A DNA stretch of 64,000 nucleotides from assembly GCA_026125665.1 (NCBI GenBank), contig JAHCKS010000022.1, positions 1-64,000 on the forward strand. The letters run 5' to 3'. Position 1 is the stretch's first letter; every line of letters begins with the position of its first letter. Positions 4,634-31,026 of the stretch are shown here, piece by piece. Source of the stretch: Rubrivivax sp. Its GTDB lineage: Bacteria; Pseudomonadota; Gammaproteobacteria; Burkholderiales; Burkholderiaceae_C. The notes beneath the pieces are model-generated. The model made no database searches. It was not told where the DNA came from and worked only from the letters and a program-made list of their open reading frames with translations. A program made the position numbers and the translations under genes.

Positions 4634-4651
4634 CCCGGCTTGCTCCTTGTC

Positions 4652-4667: not shown

Positions 4668-4741
4668 GACTGAACGATGCCACAGGTCGGGCGGCAGCGC
4701 CAGTGGTCGCCACCCGTGGTCCGGCATCGAAAGGGCGCCCC

Positions 4742-10690: not shown

Positions 10691-10701
10691 GCGGCGCGAA
10701 C

Positions 10702-14348: not shown

Positions 14349-16349
14349 ATGATGGCGCTCGATGAGGGAGACCTGCTGTGGACGCCGCGCGCGGAATTCG
14401 CGCGGTCATCCGGGGTGTCGCGCTTCATGGACTGGCTGCGGCGCGAACGCGGCCTCGACTTCGCCGACTACCCGGCGCTGTGGCAGTGGTCGGTCGACCG
14501 CGTCGAGGACTTCTGGGCTGCGCTGTGGCAGTACTTCGAGATCGACTCCTCGACGCCCTACGAGTGCGTGCTGAAGCAGCGCGCGATGCCCGGTGCGGTC
14601 TGGTTCCCCGGTGCGCGGGTGAACTTCGCCAAGCACATGCTGCGCAAGGGTCAGCGCGGGCGGCCGGCCATCCACCACCGCAGCGAAATCCGCCCGCCGG
14701 CCACGCTCGACTGGGCGGACCTGCGCGACCGGGTGGCGACGCTCGCCGAGGCGCTGCGCCGGCTGGGCATCCGGCCCGGCGACCGCGTCGCCTCGACGCT
14801 GCCGAACACGCCCGAAGCCGTGATCGCGCTGCTGGCCACGACGGCGATCGGCGCCGTCTGGTCCGCGTGCGCGCCCGACTTCGGTTCGCGCAGCATCCTC
14901 GACCGCTTCCAGCAGATCGAGCCGCGGCTGCTGTTCGCTGTCGACGGCTACCGCTTCGGCGGCAAGGACTTCGATCGCCGCGGCGAACTCGCCCGCCTGG
15001 TCGAGGGGCTGCCGTCGCTCGAGCACCTGATCTTCCTGCCCGACCTCGATCGCACGGCGCCGCGGCCGACGCCGAAAGCGCGACTGTGGTCCGAAGTGAT
15101 GGCCGAGCGGCCCGTTGCCCACGACGACTTCCGCTACGAGGACGTCGACTTCGCCCACCCGTTGTGGATCCTGTATTCGTCGGGCACCACCGGGCTGCCG
15201 AAGGCCATCACGCACGGCCATGGCGGCATGACGCTGGAGGCGCTGAAGGTCATCGCCTTCCATGCGAACCAGACGCCCGACTCGTGCCTGTTCTTCTACA
15301 CGACCACCGGCTGGATGATGTTCAACTTCATGGTCATGGGGCTGGCCGCCGGCGGGCGCATCGTGCTGTACGACGGCAACCCGCTCGCGCCCGACGTCGA
15401 GCGGCTGTGGCAGCTTGCCGCCGAGCACCGCGTGACGATGTTCGGCGCCAGCCCGACCTTCGTGCAGATGATGATGAAGGCCGGCGTGCGCCCGGCGCAG
15501 AAGTACGACCTGTCCGCGCTCGAGGGTGTTCTGCTGGGCGGCTCGCCGGCCATGCCGGAGACCTTCGAGTGGTTCTACCGCGAGGTCAAGCAGGACCTGT
15601 GGGTCACCTCGCAGAGCGGCGGCACGGACATCTGCTCGGCCTTCGTCGGCGCCTCGCCCACGCTGCCGGTGCACGCCGGCGAGATCCAGGCGCGCTTGCT
15701 CGGCGTCGACGCGCACGCGCTCGACGACGACGGGCGGCCGCTGATCGACGCGGTGGGCGAGCTGGTCATCGGCCAGCCGATGCCGTCGATGCCGCTGTAC
15801 TTCTGGGGCGACCAGGACAACCGCCGCTACCGCGAGAGCTACTTCGACGTCTACCCCGGCCAGTGGCGCCATGGCGACTTCTTCAAGGTCAACCGGCGCG
15901 GCGGCTGCTTCATCTACGGGCGTTCCGATTCGACGCTCAACCGCGCCGGCGTGCGCATCGGCACGGCGGAGATCTACCGCATCGTCGAGAACGTCGAGGG
16001 CGTGCAGGACAGCCTGGTGGTGAACCTCGACCTGCCCGGCGGCGCGTTCTTCATGCCGATGTTCGTCGTCGCCAAGCCGGGCCACCGCCTCGACGACGAG
16101 ATGCAGCGGCGCATCACGCAGGCGCTGCGCACGCAAGGCTCGCCGCGGCACGTTCCCGACAGCTACGTCGCCATCGACGCCGTGCCCTACACGCTCACCG
16201 GCAAGAAGCTCGAGCTGCCGGTGCGCAAGATCCTGCTCGGCGCCGCACCGGAGAAGGTAGCCAGCCGCGACGCGATGATGAATCCCGCGGCGCTGGACTT
16301 CTTCGTGAGCTTCGCGAGCGACCGCACGCAGTGGGGCCGCGCCGACTGA
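14349..16349 (+). CDS. Acetoacetyl-CoA synthetase (acetoacetate--CoA ligase)
   Basis: This 666-residue ANL-superfamily ligase makes acetoacetyl-CoA from acetoacetate, ATP and CoA. It has the acetoacetate-ligase N-terminus (SRFMDWLRRERGLDFADYPALW and PGAVWFPGARVNFAKHML), the AMP-binding loop LYSSGTTGLPKAITHGHGG, YFDVYPGQWRHGDF, and the catalytic Lys in YTLTGKKLELPVRK. The length equals the usual 650-670. The ATG at 14349 (or 14352) follows GAGGAG; an ATG at 14313 has no ribosome site. A second copy is fused to a CoA-transferase at 48411-51644. It recovers acetoacetate from HMG-CoA lyase or ketogenic degradation. Confidence 0.92.
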   Translation: MMALDEGDLLWTPRAEFARSSGVSRFMDWLRRERGLDFADYPALWQWSVDRVEDFWAALWQYFEIDSSTPYECVLKQRAMPGAVWFPGARVNFAKHMLRKGQRGRPAIHHRSEIRPPATLDWADLRDRVATLAEALRRLGIRPGDRVASTLPNTPEAVIALLATTAIGAVWSACAPDFGSRSILDRFQQIEPRLLFAVDGYRFGGKDFDRRGELARLVEGLPSLEHLIFLPDLDRTAPRPTPKARLWSEVMAERPVAHDDFRYEDVDFAHPLWILYSSGTTGLPKAITHGHGGMTLEALKVIAFHANQTPDSCLFFYTTTGWMMFNFMVMGLAAGGRIVLYDGNPLAPDVERLWQLAAEHRVTMFGASPTFVQMMMKAGVRPAQKYDLSALEGVLLGGSPAMPETFEWFYREVKQDLWVTSQSGGTDICSAFVGASPTLPVHAGEIQARLLGVDAHALDDDGRPLIDAVGELVIGQPMPSMPLYFWGDQDNRRYRESYFDVYPGQWRHGDFFKVNRRGGCFIYGRSDSTLNRAGVRIGTAEIYRIVENVEGVQDSLVVNLDLPGGAFFMPMFVVAKPGHRLDDEMQRRITQALRTQGSPRHVPDSYVAIDAVPYTLTGKKLELPVRKILLGAAPEKVASRDAMMNPAALDFFVSFASDRTQWGRAD

Positions 16350-16368: not shown

Positions 16369-17343
16369 TCATTCCAGCTTGACGCCGGTCTCGTCGACGA
16401 TCCGTCCGTAGCGCGGCACCTCGCTCTCGACGAAGCGCCGGAACGCATCGGCCGAACCGAAGCCGATCTGCACGCCCAGCTCGCCGAGCTTTCCCGTGCT
16501 GCGCTCCATCGCCGCGCTCATGGCCGCGTGCAGACGCGTCATGACGGCGTCGGGCGTGCCCGCCGGTGCGGCCATGCCGAACCAGCCCAGCGGCACCTCG
16601 AGGCCCTTGATGCCCAGCTCCGACAAGGTCGGCACGTCGGGAAGCTCGCGCATGCGCTGCGACCCGGTCACCGCCAGCCCCCTGAGGCGGCCAGCGCGGA
16701 CGAACGGGCCGAGTGTCGTCTGGGGGTCCATCATCATGTCCACATGCCCGGCCACCAGGTCGTTCACGGCCGGCGAGCTGCCCTTGTACGGGACGTGCCG
16801 GGCGTTGATGCCCGCAGCCTTCTTCATGATCTCGGCCGACAGGTGGCTCGCCGTCCCGTTGCCAGGCGAAGCGATGGTCAGCGTGTTGGGCGCCGCCTTG
16901 GCGCGGGCGAGCATGCCGGCGAAGTCCGCGAACGGCCGTCCGGGATGCGACGCGAGCACGTAGTTCGTGTAGCCGATCAGACCGATGTAGCGAAAGTCCT
17001 TCAGCGGGTCGTAGGGGACCTGAGGCATGAGCGACACGTTGATGATCGCCGAGCTGCCGACGTAGACGATCGTGTAGCCGTCCGGCGGCGCCGCCTTCGC
17101 GCGCGCCATGCCGATCGTGGCACCCGCGCCCGGAATGTTGTCGATCGTCACCGGCTGGTTCAGGTGTGCCGACATCCCGGCGGCCAGTTCGCGGCACAAC
17201 GCGTCGCTGAAGCTGCCGGCGGAGTACGGGACGATCATGCGCAGCGCACGCGAGGGAAATTCGTCGGCGGCGAACGCCGCCCGGCAGCCGAGCGTGCAGA
17301 GGACGACCATGGCGGCGAACCGGCGCGAGATGAAGGCGGGCAT
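16369..17343 (-). CDS. Bug/TctC-family periplasmic solute receptor
   Basis: This 324-residue receptor has a signal peptide (MPAFISRRFAAMVVLCTLG..., cleavage near AFAAD) and the family landmarks FPSRALRMIVPYSAGSFSDA, KAAPPDGYTIVYVG, HVPYKGSSPAVNDLVAGHVD and APAGTPDAVMTRL. The ATG at 17343 is chosen because a GGGAG lies six bases upstream; the frame is open to 17367. It lies 63 bp downstream of two carboxyltransferase-like genes on the same strand and faces the synthetase gene convergently, so it is probably the last gene of the carboxylase transcript. Ligand unknown. Confidence 0.92.
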   Translation of the reverse strand: MPAFISRRFAAMVVLCTLGCRAAFAADEFPSRALRMIVPYSAGSFSDALCRELAAGMSAHLNQPVTIDNIPGAGATIGMARAKAAPPDGYTIVYVGSSAIINVSLMPQVPYDPLKDFRYIGLIGYTNYVLASHPGRPFADFAGMLARAKAAPNTLTIASPGNGTASHLSAEIMKKAAGINARHVPYKGSSPAVNDLVAGHVDMMMDPQTTLGPFVRAGRLRGLAVTGSQRMRELPDVPTLSELGIKGLEVPLGWFGMAAPAGTPDAVMTRLHAAMSAAMERSTGKLGELGVQIGFGSADAFRRFVESEVPRYGRIVDETGVKLE

Positions 17344-17406
17344 GACGCTCTCCCTGTCTGTGAACATCGAAACGACGACTGCGCAGATCGCCCGCCAAGG
17401 TCGCGC

Positions 17407-18894
17407 CTACATCCGGAACGCGCCGTAGGCGGTGGGACGTGCCGGAACGCGCCCGGCGATGTCGAGCAGCTGGGCGAGCGCTTCGCGCGTGTGCCCGGGC
17501 TCGACGACGGCGTCGCACCAGAGCTGGCGCGCCCAGTTCAGCGCGCCGGCTTCGTGGTCTGGCGCGTCGGGGGACGCCGACGCGCGCGCGCCCGGCCACA
17601 TCAGCAGCGCGTTGGGCTTGAAGGCGCGACCGCACAGCGCGTGATAGCTCGCGCCGTGCACGTGGCCGGTGACGACGGTGAGCTTGGGCACGTCGCAGTT
17701 CGCCACCGCGTTGAGGAGCTTCGCCCCATGTTTGCCCACGCCGCCCTGGCCGGCGCGATCGCTGGCCGCAAAGCCCGGCGAGTCCGCCAGGAACACGAGC
17801 GCAATGTCGCGCTGGCCGCACAGCTCGATGAAGTGCGCACCCTTCGCCGCGGCCTGGGCCGTGAGCTCGCCGTTGCCCGCGACGACGCCGACCTCGAAAC
17901 CTTCGATGCGCGCGAAGCCGCAGACCAGCGTCCCGCCGTGAAGCTGCTTGAACTCCTGGAAGCGGCTGCCGTCGACCAGCCGCGCGATGATTTCCCGGCA
18001 GTCGGCGCCCGCGTGTGCTCCGCAGCGCGCCAGGCCGTTCAGCTGCCCGGGTTCGTGGCGTGGCGGCTCGGCGGCGGCACGCGTCCAGCGCAGTCGCGGC
18101 GGTTCGCCCAGGTGCTGGACGATCCGCCGCGTGATGGCCAGCGCGTCGGCGTCGTCCTCGGCCAGGTGGTCGGTGACGCCGCTGATGCGGCAGTGCATCT
18201 CGGCGCCGCCCAGCGGCTCGACATCGATCACTTCGCCGGTGGCCGCATAGACGAGCTGCGGGCTGCCGAGAAACATCGCGCCCTGGTTGCGCACGATCAC
18301 GACCTCGTCGCACAGCGCGGGGACGTACGAGCCGCCGGCGGTCGACGGCCCGAACACCAGCGCGATCTGCACGATGCCCTCCGACGACATCTTCACCTGG
18401 TTGTACATGATCGAGCCGCCCTGACCGTCGTCGGGGAAGATGTTCTCCAGGTCCGGGAGAAAGGCGCCGCCGGACTGGACCATCGTGATGCAGGGCAGGC
18501 GGTGCTGCCATGCGAACAGCTGCGCGCGCACATGACGCTTGGTCGTCATGCCGAACATCGTGCCGCCCTTCACCGTCGGGTCGTTGACGATGAGCATGCA
18601 CCAGCGGCCACCCACGAGGCCGGCAGCGGTGACCATCGTCGCGCCCGGCGGCACGCCGTCGTACAGGCCGGCGGCGGTGAGCTGGCCGATCTCCAGGAAA
18701 GGGGAACCGTTGTCGAGCAGCGCCTGGATGCGCTCGCGCGGCAGCAGCTGGCCGCGGCTCTTGTGCAACTTGCGGGCCTTCTCGCTGCCGCCCAGGCAGG
18801 CTTGGTCTTTGCACGTCTGCAGCGACGCCATGAGCGCTGCGCGGGTGGCGCGCCGCTGTTCGTCTTCGTCGCCGTGCGCCTGTGAGGTGTCCAT
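17407..18894 (-). CDS. Acyl-CoA carboxylase beta-like subunit, N-type, copy 1
   Basis: This 495-residue carboxyltransferase of the MCC/PCC beta family keeps the acyl-CoA-side N domain: VNDPTVKGGTMFGMTTKRH, QSGGAFLPD, the oxyanion glycines Gly187-Gly188 in GPSTAGGSY, and FLGSPQLVYAATGE. The C domain is shortened. After LLMWPGARAS it jumps to EAGALNWARQLWCD, so the usual MGGEQAA helix and about 45 residues are missing. It is very similar to the next gene, about 85% across 170 residues aligned by eye, with the same shortening, so the pair arose by tandem duplication. The start at 18894 lies 20 bp after the stop of copy 2. It probably works with the plus-strand subunit at 20559 and the biotin carboxylase at 22147. 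Confidence 0.88.
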   Translation of the reverse strand: MDTSQAHGDEDEQRRATRAALMASLQTCKDQACLGGSEKARKLHKSRGQLLPRERIQALLDNGSPFLEIGQLTAAGLYDGVPPGATMVTAAGLVGGRWCMLIVNDPTVKGGTMFGMTTKRHVRAQLFAWQHRLPCITMVQSGGAFLPDLENIFPDDGQGGSIMYNQVKMSSEGIVQIALVFGPSTAGGSYVPALCDEVVIVRNQGAMFLGSPQLVYAATGEVIDVEPLGGAEMHCRISGVTDHLAEDDADALAITRRIVQHLGEPPRLRWTRAAAEPPRHEPGQLNGLARCGAHAGADCREIIARLVDGSRFQEFKQLHGGTLVCGFARIEGFEVGVVAGNGELTAQAAAKGAHFIELCGQRDIALVFLADSPGFAASDRAGQGGVGKHGAKLLNAVANCDVPKLTVVTGHVHGASYHALCGRAFKPNALLMWPGARASASPDAPDHEAGALNWARQLWCDAVVEPGHTREALAQLLDIAGRVPARPTAYGAFRM

Positions 18895-18914
18895 GGACTG
18901 GGTGCCTGCGGGCG

Positions 18915-20417
18915 CTACATGCGGAACGCCCCGTACGCGGTCGGTCGGGCCGGGTTGCGGCCGGCGACGTCGAGCAGCTGTGCCAGCACCGCACGGGTCT
19001 GCTCGGGCTCGACGACCATGTCGCACCACAGCTGGCGCGCCCAGTTCAGCGCGCCGGCTTCGTCGTCCGGCGCGTCGGGTGAAGCCGAGGCGCGCGCGCC
19101 CGGCCACATCAGCAGCGCGTTGGGCTTGAACGAGCGGCCGCCCAGCGCGTAGTAGGCGGCGCCGTGCGCGCTGCCGGTGATGAGGGTGAACTTCGGCACG
19201 TCGGCATTCGCCGTCGCGTTGAGCAGCTTGGCCACATGCTTGCCCACCGTCTGCTGCCCGGGGGCATCGTTGGCGGCCAGCCCGGGCGAGTCGGCCAGGA
19301 ACACGAGCGGAATGTCGCGCTGGCCGCACAGCTCGATGAAGTGCGCACCCTTGGCGCCGGCCTGGGCGGTGAGCTCGCCGTTGCCGGCGACGATGCCGAC
19401 CTCGAAACCTTCGATGCGTGCGAAGCCGCAGACCAGCGTCCCGCCGTGCAGCTGTTTGAATTCCTGCAAGCGGCTGCCGTCGACCAGCCGCGCGATGACC
19501 TCGCGGCAGTCGACGCCGTCGGCGCCGCCGACACGGGCCAGGCCGCCGAGCTCGCGGGCGTCGTGCAGCGGCGCTTCGGCCTCGGCGCGGGTCCAGCGCT
19601 GCCGCGGCGGCTCGCCCAGGTGCTCCACGATCCGCCGCGTGATGGCCAGCGCATGGGCGTCGTCGTCGGCGATGTGGTCGGTGACGCCGCTCACCCGGCT
19701 GTGCATCTCAGCGCCGCCGAGCGGCTCGATGTCGACGATCTCCCCGGTGGCGGCGAACACCAGCTGGGGGCTGCCGAGAAACATGGCGCCTTGGTTGCGG
19801 ATGATGACCACCTCGTCACACAGCGCCGGGATGTACGCGCCGCCGGCCGTCGAGGGACCGTGCACCAGCGCGATCTGCGCGATGCCTTCGGACGACATCT
19901 TCACCTGGTTGTACATGATCGAGCCGGCCTGCCCTTCGTCCGGGAAGATGTTCTCGAGGTCGGGCAGGAAGCCGCCACCCGACTGGACCATCGTGATGCA
20001 GGGCAGGCGGTGCTGCCACGCGAACAGCTGCGCACGCGTGTGCCGCTTGGTCGTCATGCCGAACATCGTGCCGCCCTTCACCGTGGCGTCGTTGACGATC
20101 AGCATGCACCAGCGTGCGCAGACCAGGCCGACCCCGGTGATGATCGTCGCGCCTGGCGGCACGCCCTCGTAGAGATCGGCGCCGGCGAGCTGGCCGATTT
20201 CCAGGAACGGCGAGCCCGGGTCGAGCAACGCGGTGATGCGGTCGCGCGGCAGCATCTGCCCGCGGCTGCTGTGCAGCCTGCGCGCCTTTTCGTGGCCGCC
20301 CAGCAGGGCCGCGGCGCGGCGGGTGTGCAGGACCTCGAGCGCGCGTTGGTAGGCCTGGCGGCGGTGCACGACTTCCGCGGCCGCGGCGCTGAGCGATGTT
20401 CCGAGGGGCGATGTCAT
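18915..20417 (-). CDS. Acyl-CoA carboxylase beta-like subunit, N-type, copy 2
   Basis: This 500-residue paralogue of the adjacent gene has an intact N domain (VNDATVKGGTMFGMTTKRH, QSGGGFLPD, oxyanion Gly192-Gly193 in GPSTAGGAY, LGGAEMHSRVSGVTDH) and the same shortened C domain lacking the MGGEQAA segment. The ATG at 20417 opens the minus-strand transcript, and a candidate operator lies 30 bp upstream. The transcript runs copy 2, copy 1, then the Bug receptor. Family members carboxylate propionyl-, 3-methylcrotonyl-, geranyl- or long-chain acyl-CoA. The presence of two close copies may mean two acyl-CoA specificities sharing one biotin subunit (inference). Confidence 0.88.
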   Translation of the reverse strand: MTSPLGTSLSAAAAEVVHRRQAYQRALEVLHTRRAAALLGGHEKARRLHSSRGQMLPRDRITALLDPGSPFLEIGQLAGADLYEGVPPGATIITGVGLVCARWCMLIVNDATVKGGTMFGMTTKRHTRAQLFAWQHRLPCITMVQSGGGFLPDLENIFPDEGQAGSIMYNQVKMSSEGIAQIALVHGPSTAGGAYIPALCDEVVIIRNQGAMFLGSPQLVFAATGEIVDIEPLGGAEMHSRVSGVTDHIADDDAHALAITRRIVEHLGEPPRQRWTRAEAEAPLHDARELGGLARVGGADGVDCREVIARLVDGSRLQEFKQLHGGTLVCGFARIEGFEVGIVAGNGELTAQAGAKGAHFIELCGQRDIPLVFLADSPGLAANDAPGQQTVGKHVAKLLNATANADVPKFTLITGSAHGAAYYALGGRSFKPNALLMWPGARASASPDAPDDEAGALNWARQLWCDMVVEPEQTRAVLAQLLDVAGRNPARPTAYGAFRM

Positions 20418-20446
20418 GACGATCCGGGTCGATGCCGTTTTCAGCC

Positions 20447-20462
20447 TAACGAATGTTTGGTA
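20447..20462. promoter_or_regulatory. Candidate TetR-type operator, copy 2
   Basis: The imperfect palindrome TAACGAATGTTTGGTA lies between the divergent carboxylase transcripts. It matches the site at 4652-4667 in 13 of 16 positions, and both sit in divergent promoter regions of catabolic genes. The same unlinked regulator could control both loci. Confidence 0.45.
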
Positions 20463-20558
20463 TCTTAGCGGCATGTCGCTTCGCTTCGCAACGATGAAAC
20501 CCACGACCCGCCTGGGCGCCGGCACCTGCCCGTGCGTGACGCCGCGCCGGAGGACACG

Positions 20559-22130
20559 ATGAGCTTGCTCGCCTCCGCGATGACCTCGAGCCCGCAAGAG
20601 CTGCAGGCCAATCGCAGGTCCTACGAGACCCGCGTGACCGATCTGCGCACCCGGCGCGCCGCCTCCTTGGCCGCCGGCTCGCCCGAGGCCCGGCAGAAGC
20701 TGCGCGACGCCGGCCAGTTGCTCGTGCGCGAGCGCGTGAGCGCGCTGCTCGACGCCGGCTCGCCCTTCCTCGAGCTGTGCCAGCTCGCGGGCGAGGGCCT
20801 GTACGGCGACGACCCGCCGGGTGCGGGCCTGGTGACGGGCGTGGGCATGATCGCCGGCCGGCCGTGCATGGTGATCGCCAATGACCCGACCGTGAACGAC
20901 GGCGCCTACAACGCACACACCACCAAGAAGCACGTGCGCGCGCTGCGTTTCGCGTCGCAGCACCGGCTGCCGTGCGTGACGCTGCTGCAGCCGGGCGCGC
21001 AGGCGCCGGGCGCCAAGCCCGGCGTGTTCGCCGACGAGGGCCAGTTCGGCTCCATCCTGTACCTGCAGACGCGCATGTCGCGCGAGGGCATCGCGCAGAT
21101 CGCCAGCGTGCACGGCCCCGCGGCAGACAGCGCCGCGTTCGTCGCCGCGTTGTGCGACGAGGTGGTCGTCGTGCGCGAGCGCGGCGCGCTCGCGTTCGGC
21201 ATGGCCGTGCCGAACCCCGCCGACGCCGACCGCGCCAACCGCGAGGACGGCGTGACCGACCGCCTGGCCGAGAGCGACGCCCACGCCATCGCGATCCTGC
21301 GCGACCTCGTCGGCCATCTGGGCGACGTGCCGAGGCAGCGGCGCGATGTGGCAGAGCCGGTCGAGCCGCTGCACGATCCGGCCGAGATCTACGGCATCGT
21401 CAGCGCCGACCCGCGCATCCCCACGAACAACCGCGAGATCGTGCTGCGTCTCGTCGACGGCAGCGACCTGCACGAGTTCAAGCCCGAGTACGGCGACACG
21501 CTGATCACCGGCTTCGCACGCATCAAGGGCTTCGACATCGGCATCCTGTGCAACAACGGCGTGCTGTTCTCCGAAAGCGCGATGAAGGCCACGCAGTTCA
21601 TCGACCTGTGCTGCAAGCGCGACATCCCGCTGCTGTTCATGGCCGACATCAACGGCTTCATGGTCGGCCGCGAGGCCGAGGAGGCCGGCATCGCCAAGCA
21701 CGGCGCCAAGATGATCACCGCGATGACCTGCGCCGGCGTGCCCAAGTACACCCTGATCCACGGCGGCTCGTACGGCGCGGGCTACCTCGCGATGTGCGGC
21801 CGCGCGTTCAAGCCCAACGCGATGCTCATGTGGCCCAACGGCCGCGCCGCGATCATGGGCCCGGAGCAGGCCGCCACCACGCTGGCGATGGTGAAGGACG
21901 ACCAGCACAAGCGCGACGGCACGAGCTGGACCGACGCCGAGCGCGAGGCCTACAAGGCACCGGTGCGCAAGACCTTCGAGGACTTCGCCAACGCCTACAA
22001 CTTCGCCCGCAACACCTGGTGCGACCTGATCGTCGAGCCGACCGAGACGCGCGACACGATGGCGCTGCTGCTCGACCTCGCCGGCCGCGTGCCGGCGGTG
22101 CCGTCGCGCTTCGGCGTGTTCCGCATGTGA
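20559..22130 (+). CDS. Acyl-CoA carboxylase beta-like subunit, C-type
   Basis: This 523-residue carboxyltransferase-family protein follows a GGAGG five bases before the ATG. Its C domain is canonical: GGSYGAGYLAMCGRAFKP, MWPNGRAAIMGPEQAATTL, the long linker to about residue 495, and the terminal ARNTWCDLIVEPTETRDT. Its N domain has decayed. The oxyanion pair Gly-Gly is Ser191-Ala192 (GPAADSAAF), the QSGG motif is QPGA, and the FLGSPQLVxAATGE segment is missing. This is the mirror image of the two minus-strand copies, suggesting a heteromeric transferase with divided labour. It is followed 16 bp later by the biotin carboxylase gene, so the two are co-transcribed. Confidence 0.88.
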   Translation: MSLLASAMTSSPQELQANRRSYETRVTDLRTRRAASLAAGSPEARQKLRDAGQLLVRERVSALLDAGSPFLELCQLAGEGLYGDDPPGAGLVTGVGMIAGRPCMVIANDPTVNDGAYNAHTTKKHVRALRFASQHRLPCVTLLQPGAQAPGAKPGVFADEGQFGSILYLQTRMSREGIAQIASVHGPAADSAAFVAALCDEVVVVRERGALAFGMAVPNPADADRANREDGVTDRLAESDAHAIAILRDLVGHLGDVPRQRRDVAEPVEPLHDPAEIYGIVSADPRIPTNNREIVLRLVDGSDLHEFKPEYGDTLITGFARIKGFDIGILCNNGVLFSESAMKATQFIDLCCKRDIPLLFMADINGFMVGREAEEAGIAKHGAKMITAMTCAGVPKYTLIHGGSYGAGYLAMCGRAFKPNAMLMWPNGRAAIMGPEQAATTLAMVKDDQHKRDGTSWTDAEREAYKAPVRKTFEDFANAYNFARNTWCDLIVEPTETRDTMALLLDLAGRVPAVPSRFGVFRM

Positions 22131-22146
22131 GCCGGGGGCAAGCAGC

Positions 22147-24141
22147 GTGTTCGACAAGATCCTGATTGCCAACCGCGGCGAGATCGCCTGTCGCATCGTG
22201 CGCACGTGCCGGCGCCTCGGGGTGGCCGCCGCGGGCGTGCATTCCGCCGCCGACCGCGATGCGCTGCATGTGCGCGAGATCGGCGAGTCGGTCGAGATCG
22301 GCGGCGCGGCCGCGTCCGAGAGTTATCTGCGCATCGACGCGGTGATCGCGGCGGCGAAGTCGGTCGGCGCGCAAGCCATCCACCCCGGCTTCGGTTTCCT
22401 TGCCGAGAACGCCGCCTTCGCGCGCGCGGTCGAGGCGGCGGGGCTGGTCTTCATCGGCCCGACGCCCGAGGTCATCGAGCGGCTCGGCGACAAGGCCGCG
22501 GCCAAGCGCGAGGCCGACGCCGCCGGCGTGCCGATCGTGCCCGGCAGCCAGTCGCCCAGCACGGATCCGGCGGAGATCGCCGCCACCGTGCGCCGCATCG
22601 GCCTGCCGGTGATGCTCAAGGCCGCGGCGGGCGGCGGCGGCAAGGGCATGCGCGGTATCGAGGTGCTCGACGGCCTGGAGCAGGAGATCGAGTCGGCCAT
22701 GCGCGAGGCGAAGAACGCCTTCGGCGATGCCGGGCTGATCGTCGAGAAGCTGATCCGGCGCGGGCGCCACGTCGAGATCCAGATCGCCGGTGACGGCCGC
22801 GGCAAGGTCATCCACCTGTTCGAGCGCGAATGCACTCTGCAGCGCCGCCACCAGAAGGTGATCGAGGAGGCGCCGGCGGCCAACCTGAGCGCGGCGATGC
22901 GCGAGCGCATGGCGGCCGACGCGGTGCGGCTGGGCGAGCGGCTCGCATACCGCGGCGTCGGTACGGTCGAGTTCATCGTCGGCGAGAAGGACTACCACTT
23001 CCTCGAGGTCAACCCGCGGCTGCAGGTCGAGCACCCCGTCACCGAAGCGATCACCGGGCTCGATATCGTCGAATTGATGATGCGCATCACCTCCGGCGAG
23101 GGACTGCCGCTGGCACAGGACGACGTGCGCATCAGCGGCCATGCGGTCGAGGCGCGCATCTGCGCCGAGGATCCGGCGGCGAACTTCCTGCCCTCCACCG
23201 GCCGGCTCTCGCAGGTGCGCTTCCCGCGCGCCGGCGTGCGCGTGGAGACCGGCGTCGAGTCGGGCAGCGAGGTCACGCCGTACTACGACTCGATGCTGGC
23301 CAAGCTGATCACGCACGCGCCGACGCGCGACGAGGCGCTCGACCGGCTCGAGCGCGCGCTCGACGACACGGCGGTGTTCGGCGTCACCAGCAACATCGGC
23401 TTCCTGCAGCGTCTGATCGACCTGCCCGAGACGCGCAAGGCCACCTTCCACACGCGGCTGATCGACGAGCAGATCGAAGGCTGGGCGCTCGGCAAGGCGC
23501 AGCACGACGAGCGCACGCTGGCTATCGCCGCGCTGCACTGGCTGCGCAGCCAGCGCGCGGCCGACGCGCGCAGCCTGTGGTCGGGCTGGGGCGGCAGCGG
23601 CTGGCAGCTTTCCGCAGGCGACGACGGCCTGGCGCCGATCCCGAGCCTGCACGTCGAGGCCTCCGACGGCGTGAGCGCCGAGATCCGCTTCGGCCCGCTG
23701 GCCCGCGACGGCAGCCTGCTGGTGGGCGTGAACGATGCGCGGCTGCACCTGCGCCTGGCGCCCGCGGGCGACGACGGGCGCTTCCTCGCCATCGTCGACG
23801 CGCGGCGCGAGACCGTGGGCGTGCACCGCGACGGCGACATGCTCTACGTGCAGGACGGCCGCGGCACGCACGCGCTCAGGGCGGTGCCCTACCTGTCCTA
23901 CATCAGTGCGTCGGCGCAAGCCAGCGGTGACGTGAAGGCGCCGATGATGGGGCTGATCCTGAAAGTCAACGTCGCGCCGGGCGACCGCGTCGAGAAGGGC
24001 GCGGTGGTGGCGATCCTCGAGTCCATGAAGATGGAGATGCGCATCACCGCCGACTGCGCCGGCACCGTGGCGGCGGTGAACTGCAAGACCGGCCAGACGG
24101 TCGAGCGCAACGCGGTGGTGGTGAGCGTCACCCCCGAGTAG
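22147..24141 (+). CDS. Acyl-CoA carboxylase alpha subunit (biotin carboxylase plus BCCP)
   Basis: This 664-residue biotin carboxylase has FDKILIANRGEIACRIVRTC at the start, the ATP-grasp glycine loop AAAGGGGKGMRG, HFLEVNPRLQVEHPVTE, and a C-terminal biotinyl domain with ESMKME (biotinyl-lysine near residue 628). A BT-type linker region lies between. It carboxylates its own biotin with ATP and bicarbonate and passes the carboxyl group to the beta subunits. The start is GTG at 22147, 16 bp after the C-type beta gene. It is the only biotin subunit in the window and must serve all three beta-like genes. Propionyl-, methylcrotonyl- or geranyl-CoA-type substrates are possible. Confidence 0.93.
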   Translation: MFDKILIANRGEIACRIVRTCRRLGVAAAGVHSAADRDALHVREIGESVEIGGAAASESYLRIDAVIAAAKSVGAQAIHPGFGFLAENAAFARAVEAAGLVFIGPTPEVIERLGDKAAAKREADAAGVPIVPGSQSPSTDPAEIAATVRRIGLPVMLKAAAGGGGKGMRGIEVLDGLEQEIESAMREAKNAFGDAGLIVEKLIRRGRHVEIQIAGDGRGKVIHLFERECTLQRRHQKVIEEAPAANLSAAMRERMAADAVRLGERLAYRGVGTVEFIVGEKDYHFLEVNPRLQVEHPVTEAITGLDIVELMMRITSGEGLPLAQDDVRISGHAVEARICAEDPAANFLPSTGRLSQVRFPRAGVRVETGVESGSEVTPYYDSMLAKLITHAPTRDEALDRLERALDDTAVFGVTSNIGFLQRLIDLPETRKATFHTRLIDEQIEGWALGKAQHDERTLAIAALHWLRSQRAADARSLWSGWGGSGWQLSAGDDGLAPIPSLHVEASDGVSAEIRFGPLARDGSLLVGVNDARLHLRLAPAGDDGRFLAIVDARRETVGVHRDGDMLYVQDGRGTHALRAVPYLSYISASAQASGDVKAPMMGLILKVNVAPGDRVEKGAVVAILESMKMEMRITADCAGTVAAVNCKTGQTVERNAVVVSVTPE

Positions 24142-24234: not shown

Positions 24235-25551
24235 TCAGCGCAGCAGCCCCATGGTCTGCGGCAGCCACAGCACCAGGGCCGGGAAGGCGAGGATCAGCGC
24301 CACGTTGGCGAACTGCACCACGAGGAACGGCAGGGTGCCGCGGAAGATGTCCGCGGTGGGCACCTGCGGCAGCGCGCCGCGCAGCACGTAGACGTTCAGC
24401 CCCACCGGCGGGGTGATGAGCGCGATCTCGATCATCTTCACCACCAGGATGCCGAACCAGATCAGGTCGAAGCCCAGCTTCTCGACGATGGGCGCGAAGA
24501 TCGGCAGCGTCAGCGCCATCATGCCGATGGCGTCGAGGAAGCAGCCGAGGATCAGGTAGATGGCGAGCATGCCGATCAGGATGCCCATCGGCGAAAGCCC
24601 CAGCGACAGCACGAACTCGGTGGTGCGCTGCGTGAAGCCGCTGAACGCGAGGAAGCGCGAGAAGATGAGCACGCCGACGATGATCATGAAGATCATCACC
24701 GTGACCCTGGCGGTCTCGAGCATGCCTTCGCCGAGCGCGCGTCGGTCGAGCCGGCGCAAGCCGAGCGCGATCAGGAAGGTGCCGAAGGCCCCGATGCCGC
24801 CCGCCTCGGTGGGCGTGAACACCCCCATGTAGATGCCGCCGAAGACGATGGCGAAGATGGCGATGAAGCCGATGCAGCCGGCGCGAAAGAAGGACGTGCG
24901 CCGCTCGGGCCACGAGGCGCGCGGCGCGGGCGGAGCAAGCTGCGGGTGGCGCACGCCGATGACATAGATCAGCACCGCGAAGCTGGCCGCCTCCATCAGG
25001 CCCGGGATGAAGCCGGCGATCAGCAGCGGCCCGATCGGCGCTTCGACGAGCAGCCCGTAGACGATCATCACCACGCTGGGGGGGATGAGCGCGTCCATCG
25101 CCGCGCCGGCGGCGACGCTGCCCGATGCGAGCCGGCGGTCGTAGCCGGCGGCGAGCATCTCGGGCACGGCCATCTTGCCCATCACGGCGGCGGTCGCGGT
25201 GCTCGACCCGGAGATCGCGCTCCACAGCGCGGTACCCCACGTCGTGGCGATGGCGAGCCCGCCGGGGAGATGACCGACCCAGGCCTTGGCCATGCGGTAC
25301 AGATCGCCGGTGATGCCGGCCGCGCCGGCGAAGGCGCCCATCATGATGAAGAAGGGGATGACGACGAGCGTGTAGCTCGACACCTCGGAGTGCGGCACGC
25401 CCGCGGCCAGCACGCCGGCCGGCAGCACGCCGCGCATCGCGACGAGGCCGGCCAGGCCGACGGCGGCCGTGACGAACGCGATCGGCATGCCGAGGGCGAC
25501 GAACACCAGCACCGCGACCATGCCGAGCACGGCAAGGTGCAGCGGGTCCAT
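24235..25551 (-). CDS. TRAP transporter large permease (DctM)
   Basis: This 438-residue, highly hydrophobic inner-membrane protein of the DctM family has about 12 membrane segments. Family motifs include the N-terminal LGMPIAFVTAAVGLAG, PFFIMMGAFAGAAG, the WGTALWSAISGSSTATAAVMG block, and IPPSVVMIVYG. It forms the sodium-driven translocation unit of a tripartite ATP-independent transporter. The ATG at 25551 is one base from the stop codon of the small permease gene. It completes a P-Q-M operon that is divergent from the ACAD-CaiB-MaoC-CitE operon, implying import of that pathway's acid. Confidence 0.95.
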   Translation of the reverse strand: MDPLHLAVLGMVAVLVFVALGMPIAFVTAAVGLAGLVAMRGVLPAGVLAAGVPHSEVSSYTLVVIPFFIMMGAFAGAAGITGDLYRMAKAWVGHLPGGLAIATTWGTALWSAISGSSTATAAVMGKMAVPEMLAAGYDRRLASGSVAAGAAMDALIPPSVVMIVYGLLVEAPIGPLLIAGFIPGLMEAASFAVLIYVIGVRHPQLAPPAPRASWPERRTSFFRAGCIGFIAIFAIVFGGIYMGVFTPTEAGGIGAFGTFLIALGLRRLDRRALGEGMLETARVTVMIFMIIVGVLIFSRFLAFSGFTQRTTEFVLSLGLSPMGILIGMLAIYLILGCFLDAIGMMALTLPIFAPIVEKLGFDLIWFGILVVKMIEIALITPPVGLNVYVLRGALPQVPTADIFRGTLPFLVVQFANVALILAFPALVLWLPQTMGLLR

Positions 25552-25552
25552 G

Positions 25553-26053
25553 TCAGGCGGGGCGGCGGCCGAAGAGGACGCCGAGGCTGGCCACGAGTTG
25601 CAGTGCGAGGCGCAGGCACAGCAGGCCGAAGCCCAGTGGCACCGCGGCCTTGGACCACCAGGTCGGCAACTGCGCCGTCGGCGTCGAGTCGCCGATGTCC
25701 CAGGCCAGCCACGTGGCGTCTGCGCTGAACCAGGCGATCACGGCGAAGGTGGCGAGCGCGAGCGTCAGTGCGATGCAATCGGCGGCGGCGCGCGCGCGGT
25801 GCGACAGCCGCTCGACCACCAGATCCATGCCGACATGCCCGCGCCGCGCCTGCAGCCAGGCCAGCGCGAGCAGCGCCGCCGGGGCGATGAGCAGTTGCGT
25901 CGTTTCCAGGTGCCCGCGCAGCGGACTGCCGAAGAGGTAGCGCATCGCCACCTCGGCCGTGACGTACAGCATCAGCAGGAACAGGATGCCCGAGGAGGCC
26001 AGGGTCAGCCCCGTCTCGAGGGCCGCATGGGCTTTGCGCAGCGCGACGAGCAT
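25553..26053 (-). CDS. TRAP transporter small permease (DctQ)
   Basis: This 166-residue integral membrane protein has four predicted helices (for example LASSGILFLLMLYVTAEVAMRY and LLIAPAALLALAWL) and the DctQ pattern RRGHVGMDLVVERLS. It partners the DctM subunit. The ATG at 26053 overlaps the receptor stop codon (ATGA), showing translational coupling. The frame is open further upstream, but that part lies inside the receptor gene and is not used. Confidence 0.9.
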   Translation of the reverse strand: MLVALRKAHAALETGLTLASSGILFLLMLYVTAEVAMRYLFGSPLRGHLETTQLLIAPAALLALAWLQARRGHVGMDLVVERLSHRARAAADCIALTLALATFAVIAWFSADATWLAWDIGDSTPTAQLPTWWSKAAVPLGFGLLCLRLALQLVASLGVLFGRRPA

Positions 26054-27066
26054 CACCGGGCGGGCGACAAGTGCTTGCGGGCCAACTCGAGGACTTCCTT
26101 GCCCGGCAGGCCGCGCTTGTCCATGGCTTCGGTCCAGGCCTGCCAATGCTTCTCGGCCGTGGCGACCAGCCTGGCCCGCTCGGCGGCGGGGAAATCGGTC
26201 TTCTGCACGCCCTTCTGCCGGAAAGCCTCGTTGTTCTTCGCGTCGTCGAGCGCATAGGCTTCGGCGAAGCGCGGGATGGCCGCCTCGCGCAGTTCGAGCG
26301 CGAGCTTCTGCTGCTGCGGCGACAGGCGTGCCCAGGCGGCCGACGACACCGCGTAGAAGCAGGGCTGCGCGCCGAGCGAGATCTTGTCGACGAAGAACTT
26401 CGCGACCTCGTGCACCCGGTACGAGAAGAAGGCGTAGGTCGAGGGGAAGGCCACCGCGTCGACGAGGCCGCGTTCGAGCGAGGTATAGACCTCGGGGGCC
26501 GGCACCAGGCTCTTGACGGCGCCGAACTCCTCGATCGGGCGCGCCATCTCGCCGGAGATGCGGATGCGCAGCCCCTTGAAGTCCTCGGCCTTGGCGAGCG
26601 GCTTCTGCCCCATGATCTGGTACTGCGGCAGCGGCAGCGGCAGCAGCATCTCCAGGTTCCAGCGCTTGAACTCGGCGACCACCGCGGGGTGCTGCGAGAC
26701 CGCGAGTTGCGCGCGCGCCAGCGCCGTCATGTCGTCGCCCGCCAGGAACGGCAGGTCGAACACCGAGTACAGGGGGAACTTCGCCGGGTAGTACGACGTG
26801 CAGATCATGCCCAGTTCGAAGGCGCCGGCGCGCAGCGAGTCGGGGATCTCGGTGGCCTTGGCGAGCGCTTCACCGTACACCAGTTCGGCCTTGAACTGGC
26901 CGCCGGTGCGCGCCGTCATCTCCTGCACCCACCACTCGATCGGCTTGGTCGGCGAGCGCGGCGGGCCGAAGAAGCCCGCCTTCCAGCTCGCGGGCTGCGC
27001 GGCGAGCCCTCCGGACACCGCCAGGCAGACGGCGGCAAGGACGATGCGTCGAACGAAGCCGGTCAT
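26053..27066 (-). CDS. TRAP transporter substrate-binding protein (DctP)
   Basis: This 337-residue periplasmic receptor has a signal peptide (MTGFVRRIVLAAVCLAVSGG, cleavage near LAAQP). DctP features include LRAGAFELGMICTSYYPAKFP, LPFLAG, the ligand-Arg region LKGLRIRISG-like (DFKGLRIRISGEMARPIEEF) and SLERGLVDAVAFPSTYAFF. The ATG at 27066 has an AAGGAG ribosome site. It is first in the P-Q-M operon and divergent from an ACAD gene, with an IclR-type palindrome (27159-27174) in the shared promoter region. DctP receptors usually bind carboxylates; a branched dicarboxylate is suggested by the neighbours. Confidence 0.92.
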   Translation of the reverse strand: MTGFVRRIVLAAVCLAVSGGLAAQPASWKAGFFGPPRSPTKPIEWWVQEMTARTGGQFKAELVYGEALAKATEIPDSLRAGAFELGMICTSYYPAKFPLYSVFDLPFLAGDDMTALARAQLAVSQHPAVVAEFKRWNLEMLLPLPLPQYQIMGQKPLAKAEDFKGLRIRISGEMARPIEEFGAVKSLVPAPEVYTSLERGLVDAVAFPSTYAFFSYRVHEVAKFFVDKISLGAQPCFYAVSSAAWARLSPQQQKLALELREAAIPRFAEAYALDDAKNNEAFRQKGVQKTDFPAAERARLVATAEKHWQAWTEAMDKRGLPGKEVLELARKHLSPAR

Positions 27067-27158
27067 GAGACTGCTCCTTGGTGAGTGCGCCAGGCCGGCG
27101 CACTCTAGCGTGCGCTCGCCGCCGCGGCAATGGGCTAGACTGCGGATATGCGCCTGAC

Positions 27159-27174
27159 GTTCGAATATGCGAAC
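27159..27174. promoter_or_regulatory. IclR-type operator palindrome, copy 1
   Basis: GTTCG-AATATG-CGAAC is a 16-bp palindrome with perfect 5-bp arms in the 146-bp divergent promoter region between the TRAP operon and the ACAD operon. The ACAD operon ends with an IclR gene. Related 16-mers lie at 36919-36934 and 47542-47557, each next to another IclR gene. Confidence 0.6.
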
Positions 27175-27212
27175 CGCGACGACGGCCTCGCGGGCCGGCC
27201 GAGGCACCGGCC

Positions 27213-28379
27213 ATGAGCATCGACTTCACGTCCGAGCAGCGGCAGATCCGCGAAGGGGTCGACAGGCTGTGCGCCGGCTTCGACGACCAGTACTGGCTCG
27301 AGCGCGACAGCGACGGGCGCTTCCCGGAGGACTTCTGCCGCGCCATCGCCGACCACGGCTACATGGGCATCGCGATGCCGGTCGAATACGGCGGCTCCGG
27401 GCTCGGCATCACCGAGGCGGCGATCCTCACGCAGGCGATCTCGCAGTCGGGCGCCGGCAACGGCGGCGTCTCGTCGGTCAGCCTGGCGATCTTCGGGCTC
27501 AATCCGGTGGTGCGCTTCGGCACCGAGGAGCAGAAGCGGCGCATGCTGCCACCGATCATCCGGCGCCAGGACATCGCCTGCTTCGGCGTCACCGAGCCGA
27601 ACACCGGCTTGGACACGACACGGCTGAAGACGCGCGCCGTGCGCCGCGGCGACCGCTATGTGGTCAACGGCCAGAAGATCTGGATCTCGACCGCGCAGCA
27701 GGCCAACAAGATCCTGCTGATCGCGCGCACCACCGCCGAGGGGGACTGCGCGCGCCCGATCGACGGCCTGAGCCTGTTCTACGCCGACCTCGACCGCTCC
27801 AAGGTCGAGATGCGCGTCATCGACAAGATGGGCCGCAAGTGCGTCGACTCCAACGAGCTGTTCATCGACGGCCTCGAGATCCCGGTGGAGAACCGCATCG
27901 GCGAGGAGGGCAAGGGCTTCCGCTACCTGCTGCACGGCATCAACCCGGAACGCATCCTGATCGCCGCCGGGCTGGTCGGGCTCGGTCGCGCGGCGCTGCG
28001 GCGGGCCACCGACTATGCCAACCAGCGCGTCGTCTTCGGCCGCCCGATCGGCCAGAACCAGGCGATCCAGCATCCGCTGGCGCAGAGCTGGGCCGAGCTC
28101 GAGGCGGCCAACCTGATGGCCTTCCGTGCCGCGCAGCTCTACGACCGGGGCGACGAATGCGGCGCGCAGGCCAACGCCGCCAAGTTCCTCGCCGGCGAGG
28201 CCGCCTTCGCCGCCTGCACCAACGCCGTGATGACGCACGGCGGCATGGGCTACGCCAAGGAGTTCCACGTCGAGCGCTACCTGCGCGAGGTGCTCATCCA
28301 CCGCATCGCCCCGATCACGCCGCACCTGATCCTGTGCTTCATCGCCGAGAAGGTGCTCGGCCTGCCGAAGTCGTACTGA
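27213..28379 (+). CDS. Acyl-CoA dehydrogenase
   Basis: This 388-residue FAD-dependent dehydrogenase introduces an alpha,beta double bond in an acyl-CoA. It has the FAD/substrate motif CFGVTEPNTGLDTTRLKT, NGQKIWISTAQQ, a Glu in INPERILIAAG at the position used as base by isovaleryl-CoA dehydrogenase, VFGRPIGQNQAIQHPLA, and THGGMGYAKEFHVER. The last helix lacks the usual EGT motif (RIAPITPHLILCFI), consistent with the alternative base. It leads the operon ACAD-CaiB-MaoC-CitE-IclR, and its TGA overlaps the ATG of the CoA-transferase. A methylsuccinyl-CoA-type dehydrogenase would fit the context (inference). Confidence 0.9.
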   Translation: MSIDFTSEQRQIREGVDRLCAGFDDQYWLERDSDGRFPEDFCRAIADHGYMGIAMPVEYGGSGLGITEAAILTQAISQSGAGNGGVSSVSLAIFGLNPVVRFGTEEQKRRMLPPIIRRQDIACFGVTEPNTGLDTTRLKTRAVRRGDRYVVNGQKIWISTAQQANKILLIARTTAEGDCARPIDGLSLFYADLDRSKVEMRVIDKMGRKCVDSNELFIDGLEIPVENRIGEEGKGFRYLLHGINPERILIAAGLVGLGRAALRRATDYANQRVVFGRPIGQNQAIQHPLAQSWAELEAANLMAFRAAQLYDRGDECGAQANAAKFLAGEAAFAACTNAVMTHGGMGYAKEFHVERYLREVLIHRIAPITPHLILCFIAEKVLGLPKSY

Positions 28380-29593
28380 TGGCCGGGCCGCTCGCCGGCA
28401 TCCGCGTCGTCGATGTCTCGACGATGCTGATGGCGCCCTACGTCACGCAGATCCTCGGCGACATGGGCGCCGACGTCGTGAAGGTCGAATCGCCCGCAGG
28501 CGACGCTGTGCGCGGCGTCGGCCCGCTGCGCCACGCTGGCATGGGGGCGATCTTCCTGAACGCCAACCGTGGCAAGCGCAGCGTCGTGCTCGACCTCAAG
28601 CAGGCCGAAGGGCTGTCCGCGCTCGACGCGCTCGTCGCGCGCGCCGACGTGTTTGTCTGCAACCTGCGCCCGCACACGATGGCGCGGCTGGGCATGGGCT
28701 ACGAGCGCGCCGCAGCGAACAACCCGGCGCTGATCTACGCGGCGCTCTACGGCTTTGCCGAATCGGGCCCTTACGGGGCCAAGCCGGCATTCGACGACCT
28801 GATCCAGGGCGCCGTCGCCGTGCCGTGGCTGGCGCACATGGCCGACGGGCGCGAGCCGGCCTACGCGCCGACGGCGATCGTCGACCGCGGCGTCGCGCTG
28901 TGGGCCGTGGGGCAGATCAACGGGGCGCTGTTCCACCGCAGCCGCAGCGGCCAGGGCCAGAAGATCGACATCCCGATGTTCGAGATGATGGCCTCGTTCG
29001 TGCTGGGCGACCACCTCGCCGGCGAGACCTTCGACCCGCCGCTCGGCCCGGCCGGCTATGCGCGCATGCTCAACCCCGAGCGGCGCCCGTACCGCACGCT
29101 CGACGGCTACGTGTGCGCGATGATCTACACCGACCGGCACTGGCGCGCCTTCTACCGCGCGCTCGGGCGCGAGGACGACTTCGAGCGCGACCCGCGCCTG
29201 TGCAGCATGACGACGCGCGGCGAGCACATCCGCGACATCTACGCCGAGCTGTCGGCGCTGATGCGCACGCGCACTACCGCGCAGTGGCTCGCGCTGTTCG
29301 AAAGCGCCGACGTGCCCGCCATGCCGCTGCACACGCCCGCGACGCTGCTCGACGACGAGCACCTGCGTGCCACCGGCTTCTTCACGGTCGTCGACCATCC
29401 GAGCGAAGGCCGCATCCGCGAGATGGCCTACCCGAGCGCGTGGTCGGCGACGCAGCCGCAGCCGGGGCGGCCGGCGCCGCGCCTGGGCGAGCACAGCGCC
29501 GAGGTGCTGCGCGAGATCGGCTACGACGACGGGCGCATCCGCTCGCTCGTCGCCCGCGGCGTGACGGCGTGCGCGCCGCAGCCCGCAACCTGA
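28379..29593 (+). CDS. CaiB/BaiF class III CoA-transferase
   Basis: This 404-residue class III CoA-transferase has MAGPLAGIRVVDVSTMLMAP, LGDMGADVVKVESPAGD, ANRGKRSVVLDL, and the catalytic Asp in PTAIVDRGVAL. The ATG overlaps the ACAD stop codon. In an operon with a MaoC hydratase and a CitE lyase it most likely activates the dicarboxylic substrate, for example with succinyl-CoA or acetyl-CoA as donor. This is the role played by CoA-transferases in itaconate or mesaconate degradation. That pathway role is inferred; the family assignment is secure. Confidence 0.92.
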   Translation: MAGPLAGIRVVDVSTMLMAPYVTQILGDMGADVVKVESPAGDAVRGVGPLRHAGMGAIFLNANRGKRSVVLDLKQAEGLSALDALVARADVFVCNLRPHTMARLGMGYERAAANNPALIYAALYGFAESGPYGAKPAFDDLIQGAVAVPWLAHMADGREPAYAPTAIVDRGVALWAVGQINGALFHRSRSGQGQKIDIPMFEMMASFVLGDHLAGETFDPPLGPAGYARMLNPERRPYRTLDGYVCAMIYTDRHWRAFYRALGREDDFERDPRLCSMTTRGEHIRDIYAELSALMRTRTTAQWLALFESADVPAMPLHTPATLLDDEHLRATGFFTVVDHPSEGRIREMAYPSAWSATQPQPGRPAPRLGEHSAEVLREIGYDDGRIRSLVARGVTACAPQPAT

Positions 29594-29610
29594 AGCGAAA
29601 GGCGCCCCCC

Positions 29611-30063
29611 ATGGCAGGTCTGTACTACGAGGAGTTCGAGGTCGGCATGGAATTCCGCCATGCGCTGACACGCACGGTGACGGAGATGGACAACATCCTC
29701 TTCTGCGCGATGACGCACAACCCGCAGCCGCTGCACCTCGACGAGGAATTCGCGCGCCAGACGATGTACGGGCAGCGCCTCGTCAACAGCCTGTTCACGC
29801 TCGGCCTGGTGATCGGCGTGTCGGTCGCCGAGACGACGCTCGGCACCACGCTCGGCAATCTCGGCATGACCGACATCCGTTTCAAGCACCCGGTGTTCCA
29901 CGGCGACACGGTGCGCGTGGTCACGCGCATCAAGGAACTGCGCGAGAGCAGGTCGCGCCCGAACGAAGGCATCGTCACCTTCGAGCACATCGGCTACAAC
30001 CAGCGCGACGAGGAGGTCTGCTACGTCGTGCGCACCGGCCTGATGCGCAAGAGGCCGGCATGA
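29611..30063 (+). CDS. MaoC-like (R)-specific enoyl-CoA hydratase
   Basis: This 150-residue single hot-dog MaoC-type hydratase has the hydratase motif in FCAMTHNPQPLHLDEEFAR (Asn/Asp and His pair), LVNSLFTLGLVIGVSV and FKHPVFHGDTVRVVTRI. It adds water to a 2-enoyl-CoA. Its start overlaps nothing, and 17 bases separate it from the CoA-transferase; its stop overlaps the CitE start. The MaoC-CitE pairing matches the hydratase/lyase pair of itaconate and mesaconate catabolism, where the product is a malyl- or citramalyl-CoA-like ester. Confidence 0.9.
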   Translation: MAGLYYEEFEVGMEFRHALTRTVTEMDNILFCAMTHNPQPLHLDEEFARQTMYGQRLVNSLFTLGLVIGVSVAETTLGTTLGNLGMTDIRFKHPVFHGDTVRVVTRIKELRESRSRPNEGIVTFEHIGYNQRDEEVCYVVRTGLMRKRPA

Positions 30064-30983: not shown

Positions 30984-31026
30984 GCCAGGCGTGCGCACCC
31001 AGCGACAGGCACCCGGCGCTCCGCGC

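Follow-up and report, generated by a model that had tools for sequence, protein, structure and literature searches.

A divergent acyl-CoA carboxylase locus of Rubrivivax sp. with reciprocally worn beta-like subunits: a candidate heteromeric enzyme

What kind of enzyme is encoded by a locus in which each of several carboxyltransferase genes has lost part of the active site, and different genes have lost different parts? We address this question for positions 17407-24141 of a 64-kb window (the whole stretch of DNA analysed, 64,000 nucleotides from Rubrivivax sp.). Here two beta-like genes, A and B, lie on the minus strand; a third beta-like gene, C, and the alpha-subunit gene D lie on the plus strand, B and C being divergently oriented (Table 1). 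D is the sole alpha gene detected within the window. The arrangement is real, conserved and unusual, and the comparative evidence strongly supports reading it as a heteromer, in which A or B would supply the N domain (acyl-CoA) and C would supply the C domain (carboxybiotin). Judging from the sequences, we consider it quite likely that the locus encodes an obligate heteromeric acyl-CoA carboxylase of the methylcrotonyl-CoA carboxylase/geranyl-CoA carboxylase (MCC/GCC) class, with a mixed carboxyltransferase core and one working site per dimer of A or B with C.

Reciprocal losses in two subunit types

The two gene types have lost opposite halves. Gly-Gly is present at residues 187-188 of A and 192-193 of B; in C (numbered from the ATG at 20559) it is replaced by Ser-Ala at 191-192. 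We take this Gly-Gly and the YGAG motif to be oxyanion holes, Gly-Gly holding the acyl-CoA enolate. Compared with C and with solved MCC chains, A and B have about 14-24 unrelated or remnant residues in place of a stretch of about 42-60 residues that includes MGGEQAA, and their C half is also missing GFMVG and one of the YGAG glycines. C can be aligned end to end, yet it is about 12 residues shorter around FLGSPQLV and has also lost SGGA.LP and further N-half motifs. The same losses are seen in relatives from several genera. A preliminary description of this locus had the coordinates, strands and residue numbers of these features right, including the Gly-Gly of both minus-strand genes, the Ser-Ala and retained C domain of C, and the segment missing from C. 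It had also recognized that A and B lack part of the C domain with MGGEQAA, although its figure of about 45 residues is too large (the alignment gives a net loss of about 36), and it understated the losses, having listed neither SGGA.LP for C nor GFMVG and the YGAG glycine for A and B. Equivalent residues in place of the missing segments, which that description named as a finding that would overturn it, do not appear in the alignment.

We defined as invariant the positions conserved in at least 99% of 108 full-length relatives (a reference that excludes rows L003, L005 and L006; L numbers denote loci), which gave 117 positions, 64 in the N half and 53 in the C half. A keeps 61/64 in its N half and 39/53 in its C half (Fisher’s exact test, p = 1.2e-3), B keeps 64/64 and 37/53 (p = 7e-7), and C keeps 39/64 and 52/53 (p = 3e-7). 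The losses of both types are thus far from chance. When the intact halves are combined (N half of B, C half of C), 116 of the 117 invariants are present; the worn halves (N half of C, C half of B) together hold 76. Gly-Gly is found in 26/26 A/B rows and 111/111 full-length rows and in 0/16 C rows, where six different pairs replace it and one glycine is left in five rows. Conversely, the C-half motif GAG is present in 16/16 C rows and 0/26 A/B rows. The A/B class was defined partly through the absence of an MGGEQAA-like motif, so that this absence follows from the definition, in which Gly-Gly and GAG played no part. Partial remnants of the missing C-half segment persist in L099, L113 and the Extensimonas loci.

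A stricter measure takes its invariants from 79 MCC-like rows alone. The fractions kept in the N and C halves are then 0.80 and 0.66 for A/B, 0.52 and 0.78 for C, 0.84 and 0.77 for 20 closer full-length relatives, and 0.85 and 0.75 for nine rows of a full-length type named C65 (see below). By this measure A/B have lost a moderate share and C a large one. The 26 A/B rows include some genes more than once, with a different cut at the locus end. Only proteins of at least 470 aa that end in the usual way for the family (R, then M, L or I) were retained. This excluded broken and cut genes and, with them, another full-length type of paralogue sharing about 56-57% identity with C (e.g., L078, L081 and L083), which is hence absent from the trees, rates and reference rows. 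Three rows of this type have intact motifs in both halves.

Evolutionary rates mirror the residue losses. After removal of near-identical rows (A/B from 26 to 17, C from 16 to 10, C65-type from 9 to 5, MCC-like from 79 to 69), partitioned trees gave relative substitution speeds for the N and C halves of 0.67 and 1.38 in A/B, 1.52 and 0.52 in C, and 1.18 and 0.83 in the MCC-like sample (16 of 69 rows, drawn at random). Of the groups measured, the C half of C is relatively the slowest. The N half changed more than the C half in 1/136 A/B pairs, 45/45 C pairs and 1507/2346 MCC-like pairs. Similarly, amino-acid differences from full-length Bradyrhizobium relatives amount to 0.176 (N) and 0.404 (C) for A/B, and to 0.380 (N) and 0.176 (C) for C.

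In pairs restricted to 1-9% amino-acid difference and a synonymous divergence (dS) of at most 1.2, summed omega (dN/dS) was 0.066 in the N half and 0.163 in the C half of A/B (17 pairs), and 0.099 and 0.073, respectively, in C (23 pairs). Purifying selection thus acts on all four halves in the close pairs tested, which indicates that both gene types are in use. Deleted segments, together with a frame-broken second A/B gene in L072/L094, might otherwise suggest decaying, functionless duplicates, an idea made extremely improbable by the open frames of these window genes, their conservation across several genera and the low omega of every half. Pseudogene decay was rejected on the purifying selection found in all halves among the pairs usable for omega.

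Recurrence, relatives and rival readings

B was used in a scan of 84,980 genomes, and the best 80 of 399 relatives were kept. Among these best 80, 20 A/B-type loci (L084-L101, L111 and L113, from 18 genomes) have matches to B of at least 72%; at 61-62% come eight Bradyrhizobium-like loci together with L108 and L109, and the next match is at 45%. L111 ends before the site of the C-half deletion. The named hosts include Schlegelella koreensis, Hydrogenophaga intermedia, Xenophilus azovorans, Ramlibacter albus, Caenimonas sedimenti and Extensimonas species, and B is identical in the assembly Burkholderiales bacterium NC_groundwater_1989 (L084). A C-type gene adjoins divergently in 18 of the 20 A/B-type loci (partial in L089); L095, one of the two without it, ends at a contig end. 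Exactly one A/B and one C gene lie within the stretch in eight loci (L086, L091, L092, L096, L097, L098, L101 and L113), so one of each type seems enough. In L072 (13241-15029; the same stretch in L094) a second A/B-type gene has a broken frame, reflecting either real decay or an assembly error.

Co-occurrence was assessed in two genome samples. Across 399 genomes of the family (own genome included), both types are found in the same eight and neither type in the others (C type, E <=4.3e-268; A/B type, best E <=8.9e-245; best three candidates per genome scored). Across an order-level sample of 399 genomes, again including our own, a C-type match of such strength occurs in the own genome alone; another genome of this sample (G070) has full-length relatives. 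The preliminary description had suggested looking for the two-type arrangement in other genomes, where it indeed recurs, and had proposed a heteromer with one half-site per subunit type and a shared biotin subunit. This proposal is supported, at the level of sequence comparison, by the recurrence, the 116/117 complementarity, the reciprocal rates and the co-occurrence.

Full-length relatives bear on the order of events. Eight loci (L102-L107, L110 and L112; seven titled Bradyrhizobium, Afipia or Hyphomicrobiales) carry a divergent pair of full-length beta genes together with D, and an acyl-CoA dehydrogenase gene sits between the two. In the tree, the C clade and the A/B clade each have one member of the pair as their sister (supports 0.918 and 0.979), so the pair separated before the losses. 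No full-length row of the tree is more than 66% identical to A, B or C. The Rhodocyclaceae bin L109 (6708-13611) carries a tandem array of three full-length beta genes plus an alpha gene; by their pocket residue the beta genes resemble A, C and B in turn, and the array is perhaps close to the ancestral state.

The own genome also contains a full-length gene with Phe at the pocket position (contig C65, 7829-9433; locus L075, 7628-9433), which defines the C65 type. This type shows similarity to the C lineage as far as about residue 280 and, beyond that point, mainly to the A/B lineage. Breakpoint trees of 46 chosen rows place its N half firmly on the C side (the approximately unbiased (AU) test rejects the A/B side, p = 6.6e-5); its C half falls on the A/B side with a support of 57, a placement that is not significant as the alternative is not rejected (AU p = 0.07). 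The C65-type gene may be a fusion of the two lost halves. At 86% identity or more to the L082 relative, it was found in 13/13 A/B genomes searched (13 of 18), including the metagenome bin FW602_bin.10; in L082 it has its own alpha gene about 3.3 kb downstream. In 6/6 full-length-pair genomes (taken from the eight such loci and the genome of L109, with L103, L105 and L106 left aside) the best C65-type match reaches 74-76% and is, by its coordinates, the C-like pair member itself. From this distribution and the placement of the two halves, we tentatively propose one possible history. The ancestor would have been a mixed enzyme, whose full-length form survives in Bradyrhizobium and a Rhodocyclaceae bin, with a large-pocket site (N half of A/B, C half of C) and a small-pocket site (N half of C, C half of A/B). 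Recombination in Burkholderiales would have joined the small-pocket halves in the C65-type chain, which took over that reaction. Relieved of that task, the mixed enzyme would then have lost its second site one half at a time, and two locked-in, complementary, half-dead subunits would remain.

Several observations weigh against a heteromer. The full-length C65-type proteins are also fast in the C half (N 0.71, C 1.29; N changing more than C in 0/10 pairs), so that a fast C half alone is no proof of loss, and the omega contrast between halves, clear in A/B, is weak in C (0.099 vs 0.073). A/B proteins keep the GA of the GAG motif and 37-46 of the 53 C-half invariants, so this half has not been obliterated. 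AAA or AAG takes the place of GAG in 16 of 29 closer full-length relatives, which means that losing GAG does not by itself show a half to be dead. The eight co-occurring genomes come from five genus codes and hence are not independent. FW602_bin.10 (L099) has an A/B-type gene; no C type lies beside it and none was found elsewhere in the bin, where none of the six matches to C at E <1e-30 is C type; the bin may be incomplete, or A/B may be functional with another partner. Finally, the predicted local distance difference test score (pLDDT) of the B model is below 50 at residues 147-164, 214-219 and 231-234, all in the acyl half.

Part of this evidence fits A/B and C being separate homomeric enzymes that share the alpha subunit, with odd halves adapted to new substrates or to decarboxylation and not dead. 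Purifying selection on all halves of the tested pairs, the retained GA and the AAA or AAG of full-length relatives can all be read in this way. We nevertheless regard it as unlikely: the loss of Gly-Gly from every C row, with six replacements, looks like drift and not like a new motif, the intact halves complement each other at 116/117 positions, and the two types are linked and co-occur. The bin in which no C type was found raises a different alternative, namely that C is structural or regulatory and the A/B site is completed by another beta protein of the cell, for instance the full-length C65 type, whose gene is present in that bin as in every A/B genome searched. This we judge slightly less probable again. 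The C half of C, the slowest measured and with 52/53 invariants, behaves as a catalytic half, and the alpha gene downstream of the C65-type gene in L082 also speaks against such a role. A mixed enzyme of A or B with C remains our preferred reading.

Predicted fold, proposed site and gene neighbourhood

The carboxyltransferase profile PF01039 (cut-off 22.3 bits) matches A, B and C with 345, 323 and 337 bits, making all three members of the family; the match of A and B ends at profile position 404 of 493. Their best sequence matches among solved chains are MCC-type (MCC and AccD1). Likewise, the ten best structural matches of the monomer models are MCC or AccD1 chains, with template modelling (TM) scores by query length of 0.91-0.95, and propionyl-CoA carboxylase (PCC) scores about 0.42. 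Both domains are present in the B and C models, and A aligns along B. The models have the domain connectivity and the N-terminal helix of about 30 residues (14-39 in B, 12-37 in C) that characterize the MCC/GCC class, to which the predicted fold would belong. Helices 435-453 and 459-477 of the C model correspond in the B model to two helices of 4 and 6 residues.

Within this class the subunits fit no established type. The position of Phe191, which lines the acyl pocket in MCC proper, is Gly in A, Ala in B, and Ala in 19 and Gly in 7 of the 26 A/B rows; 16/16 C rows have Phe there, though other pocket motifs are absent. GCC proper combines Gly for Phe191 with three residues fewer before it, and here that stretch has MCC length (in an alignment to MCC-like rows only). 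On sequence grounds alone, the residue loss in one half of each type is at odds with a self-sufficient homomeric beta subunit, and the chains differ from the divided AccA/AccD type, in which N and C domains are separate single-domain chains. A plain MCC or GCC was ruled out by the pocket residue and the half-site losses.

The MCC active site is reported to be buried in the symmetric interface of two carboxyltransferase chains, both of which contact the substrate (PMC4347857). One half carries the CoA ester and the opposite half carboxybiotin (PMC5534430). N-domain helices make up most of the acyl pocket, whose size is set by Phe191 in MCC versus Gly in GCC (PMC4673880). With an interface site of this kind, each pairing of A or B with C would have one complete and one dead site, and a six-chain core would have three sites rather than six. 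D would carboxylate its own biotin and bring it to the intact site. Gly or Ala in A/B would open the pocket that Phe191 fills in MCC; together with Phe in C, this points to a bulky substrate and to A and B as probable alternative acyl-binding subunits sharing C and D.

A bulky, beta-branched enoyl-CoA, in a pathway that releases acetoacetate, is the probable substrate. The neighbouring acetoacetate--CoA ligase suggests acetoacetate as the pathway product, and the neighbour genes (Table 1), taken with the gamma-carboxylation typical of the class, would fit the breakdown of a branched, perhaps isoprenoid, acid. The Extensimonas loci have none of the hydrolase, thiolase, DUF35, dehydrogenase, ligase, short-chain dehydrogenase/reductase (SDR) or synthetase neighbours within the stretch examined. 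Neighbour counts are minima, as loci extend 10 kb from the match or to the contig end.

Table 1. The carboxylase genes and other features of the window, with their occurrence at the 20 A/B-type loci.
Feature	Position	Strand	Description
Gene A	17407-18894	-	short beta-like chain of 495 aa with a preserved N (acyl-CoA) half and a degenerate C (biotin) half
Gene B	18915-20417	-	short beta-like chain of 500 aa, sharing 78% identity with A
B-C intergenic gap	20418-20531		between divergent B and C, up to the GTG start of C
Gene C	20532-22130	+	divergent beta-like subunit; GTG start; 523 aa from ATG at 20559
Gene D	22147-24141	+	alpha subunit, 664 aa; biotin carboxylase and biotinyl domains
Acetoacetate--CoA ligase	14349-16349	+	adjoins 8/20 loci (L084 98%, seven more 82-86%)
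DUF35/ChsH2-like protein and SCP-x-type thiolase	within 9102-12809	+	each at 11/20 loci
Alpha/beta hydrolase	within 9102-12809	+	13/20 loci
CoA-transferase III	11583-12809	+	close match solely in the near-identical assembly L084
NDP-type acyl-CoA synthetase	1741-3861	-	8/20 loci
SDR	within 3875-5719	-	8/20 loci
Double acyl-CoA dehydrogenase	5817-8108	+	10/20 loci
TctC-type solute receptors	744-1730, 8173-9087, 16369-17367, 32826-33791, 34807-35679		five in 36 kb
DctP-type receptors	26053-27066, 39766-40818		two
TRAP transporter module	24235-31860		downstream of D

The host draft genome is 6.3 Mb and 88.6% complete, with the window on contig 124. The double-length acyl-CoA dehydrogenase contains its N- and C-terminal domains twice and its middle domain once (residues 503-597), and one of its halves may likewise be worn out. 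The module downstream of D consists of a tripartite ATP-independent periplasmic (TRAP) transporter with acyl-CoA dehydrogenase, CoA-transferase, MaoC, CitE-like lyase and IclR genes, and is intact solely in the near-identical assembly among the loci compared. In genome G012, more MCC-like beta genes lie near 262, 377 and 389 kb of contig C7, on which the A/B/C locus is at 318-323 kb, suggesting that 262-391 kb is one large catabolic region.

Comparison with known systems

If the proposed heteromer is real, a homomeric enzyme has become an obligate heteromer through reciprocal loss of opposite half-sites, and its full-length and partly eroded living relatives reveal the order of events. How an enzyme is locked into a multi-subunit form would thereby become a directly testable question. 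The locus also suggests a modular carboxylase in which varied acyl-binding subunits share one biotin-binding subunit. On this reading, annotating an A/B- or C-type gene by itself as a complete carboxylase subunit would be a mistake. Among the matches listed from one open-licence literature collection (titles and starts of abstracts), we found no description of such a gene pair.

The closest known systems are MCC and GCC, which share with the window subunits the predicted fold class, the domain order, the long N-terminal helix and the type of alpha subunit; solved MCC or AccD1 chains are 40-46% identical to them in structural alignments. Unlike MCC and GCC, where one beta type has both half-sites, each chain type here lacks one half, and with Gly or Ala for Phe191 at MCC length A and B follow neither published rule fully. 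The mycobacterial long-chain acyl-CoA carboxylase with AccD4 and AccD5 likewise has two beta paralogues, there in one complex and here as linked, co-occurring genes. A pull-down is reported to link AccD4 with AccD5 (PMC4347857), and the six solved AccD4/AccD5 entries hold 24 chains labelled D5 and 12 labelled D4. Their topology, however, is PCC-type, which the window models match poorly (TM about 0.42). As proposed for the present enzyme, one chain of the AccA/AccD acetyl-CoA carboxylase binds the CoA ester and the other carboxybiotin (PMC5534430). In that enzyme, as in the malonate decarboxylase subunits MdcD (30 kD) and MdcE (28 kD), each chain is one half; compared with these divided carboxyltransferases, the window chains keep two domains each, one of which is worn out.

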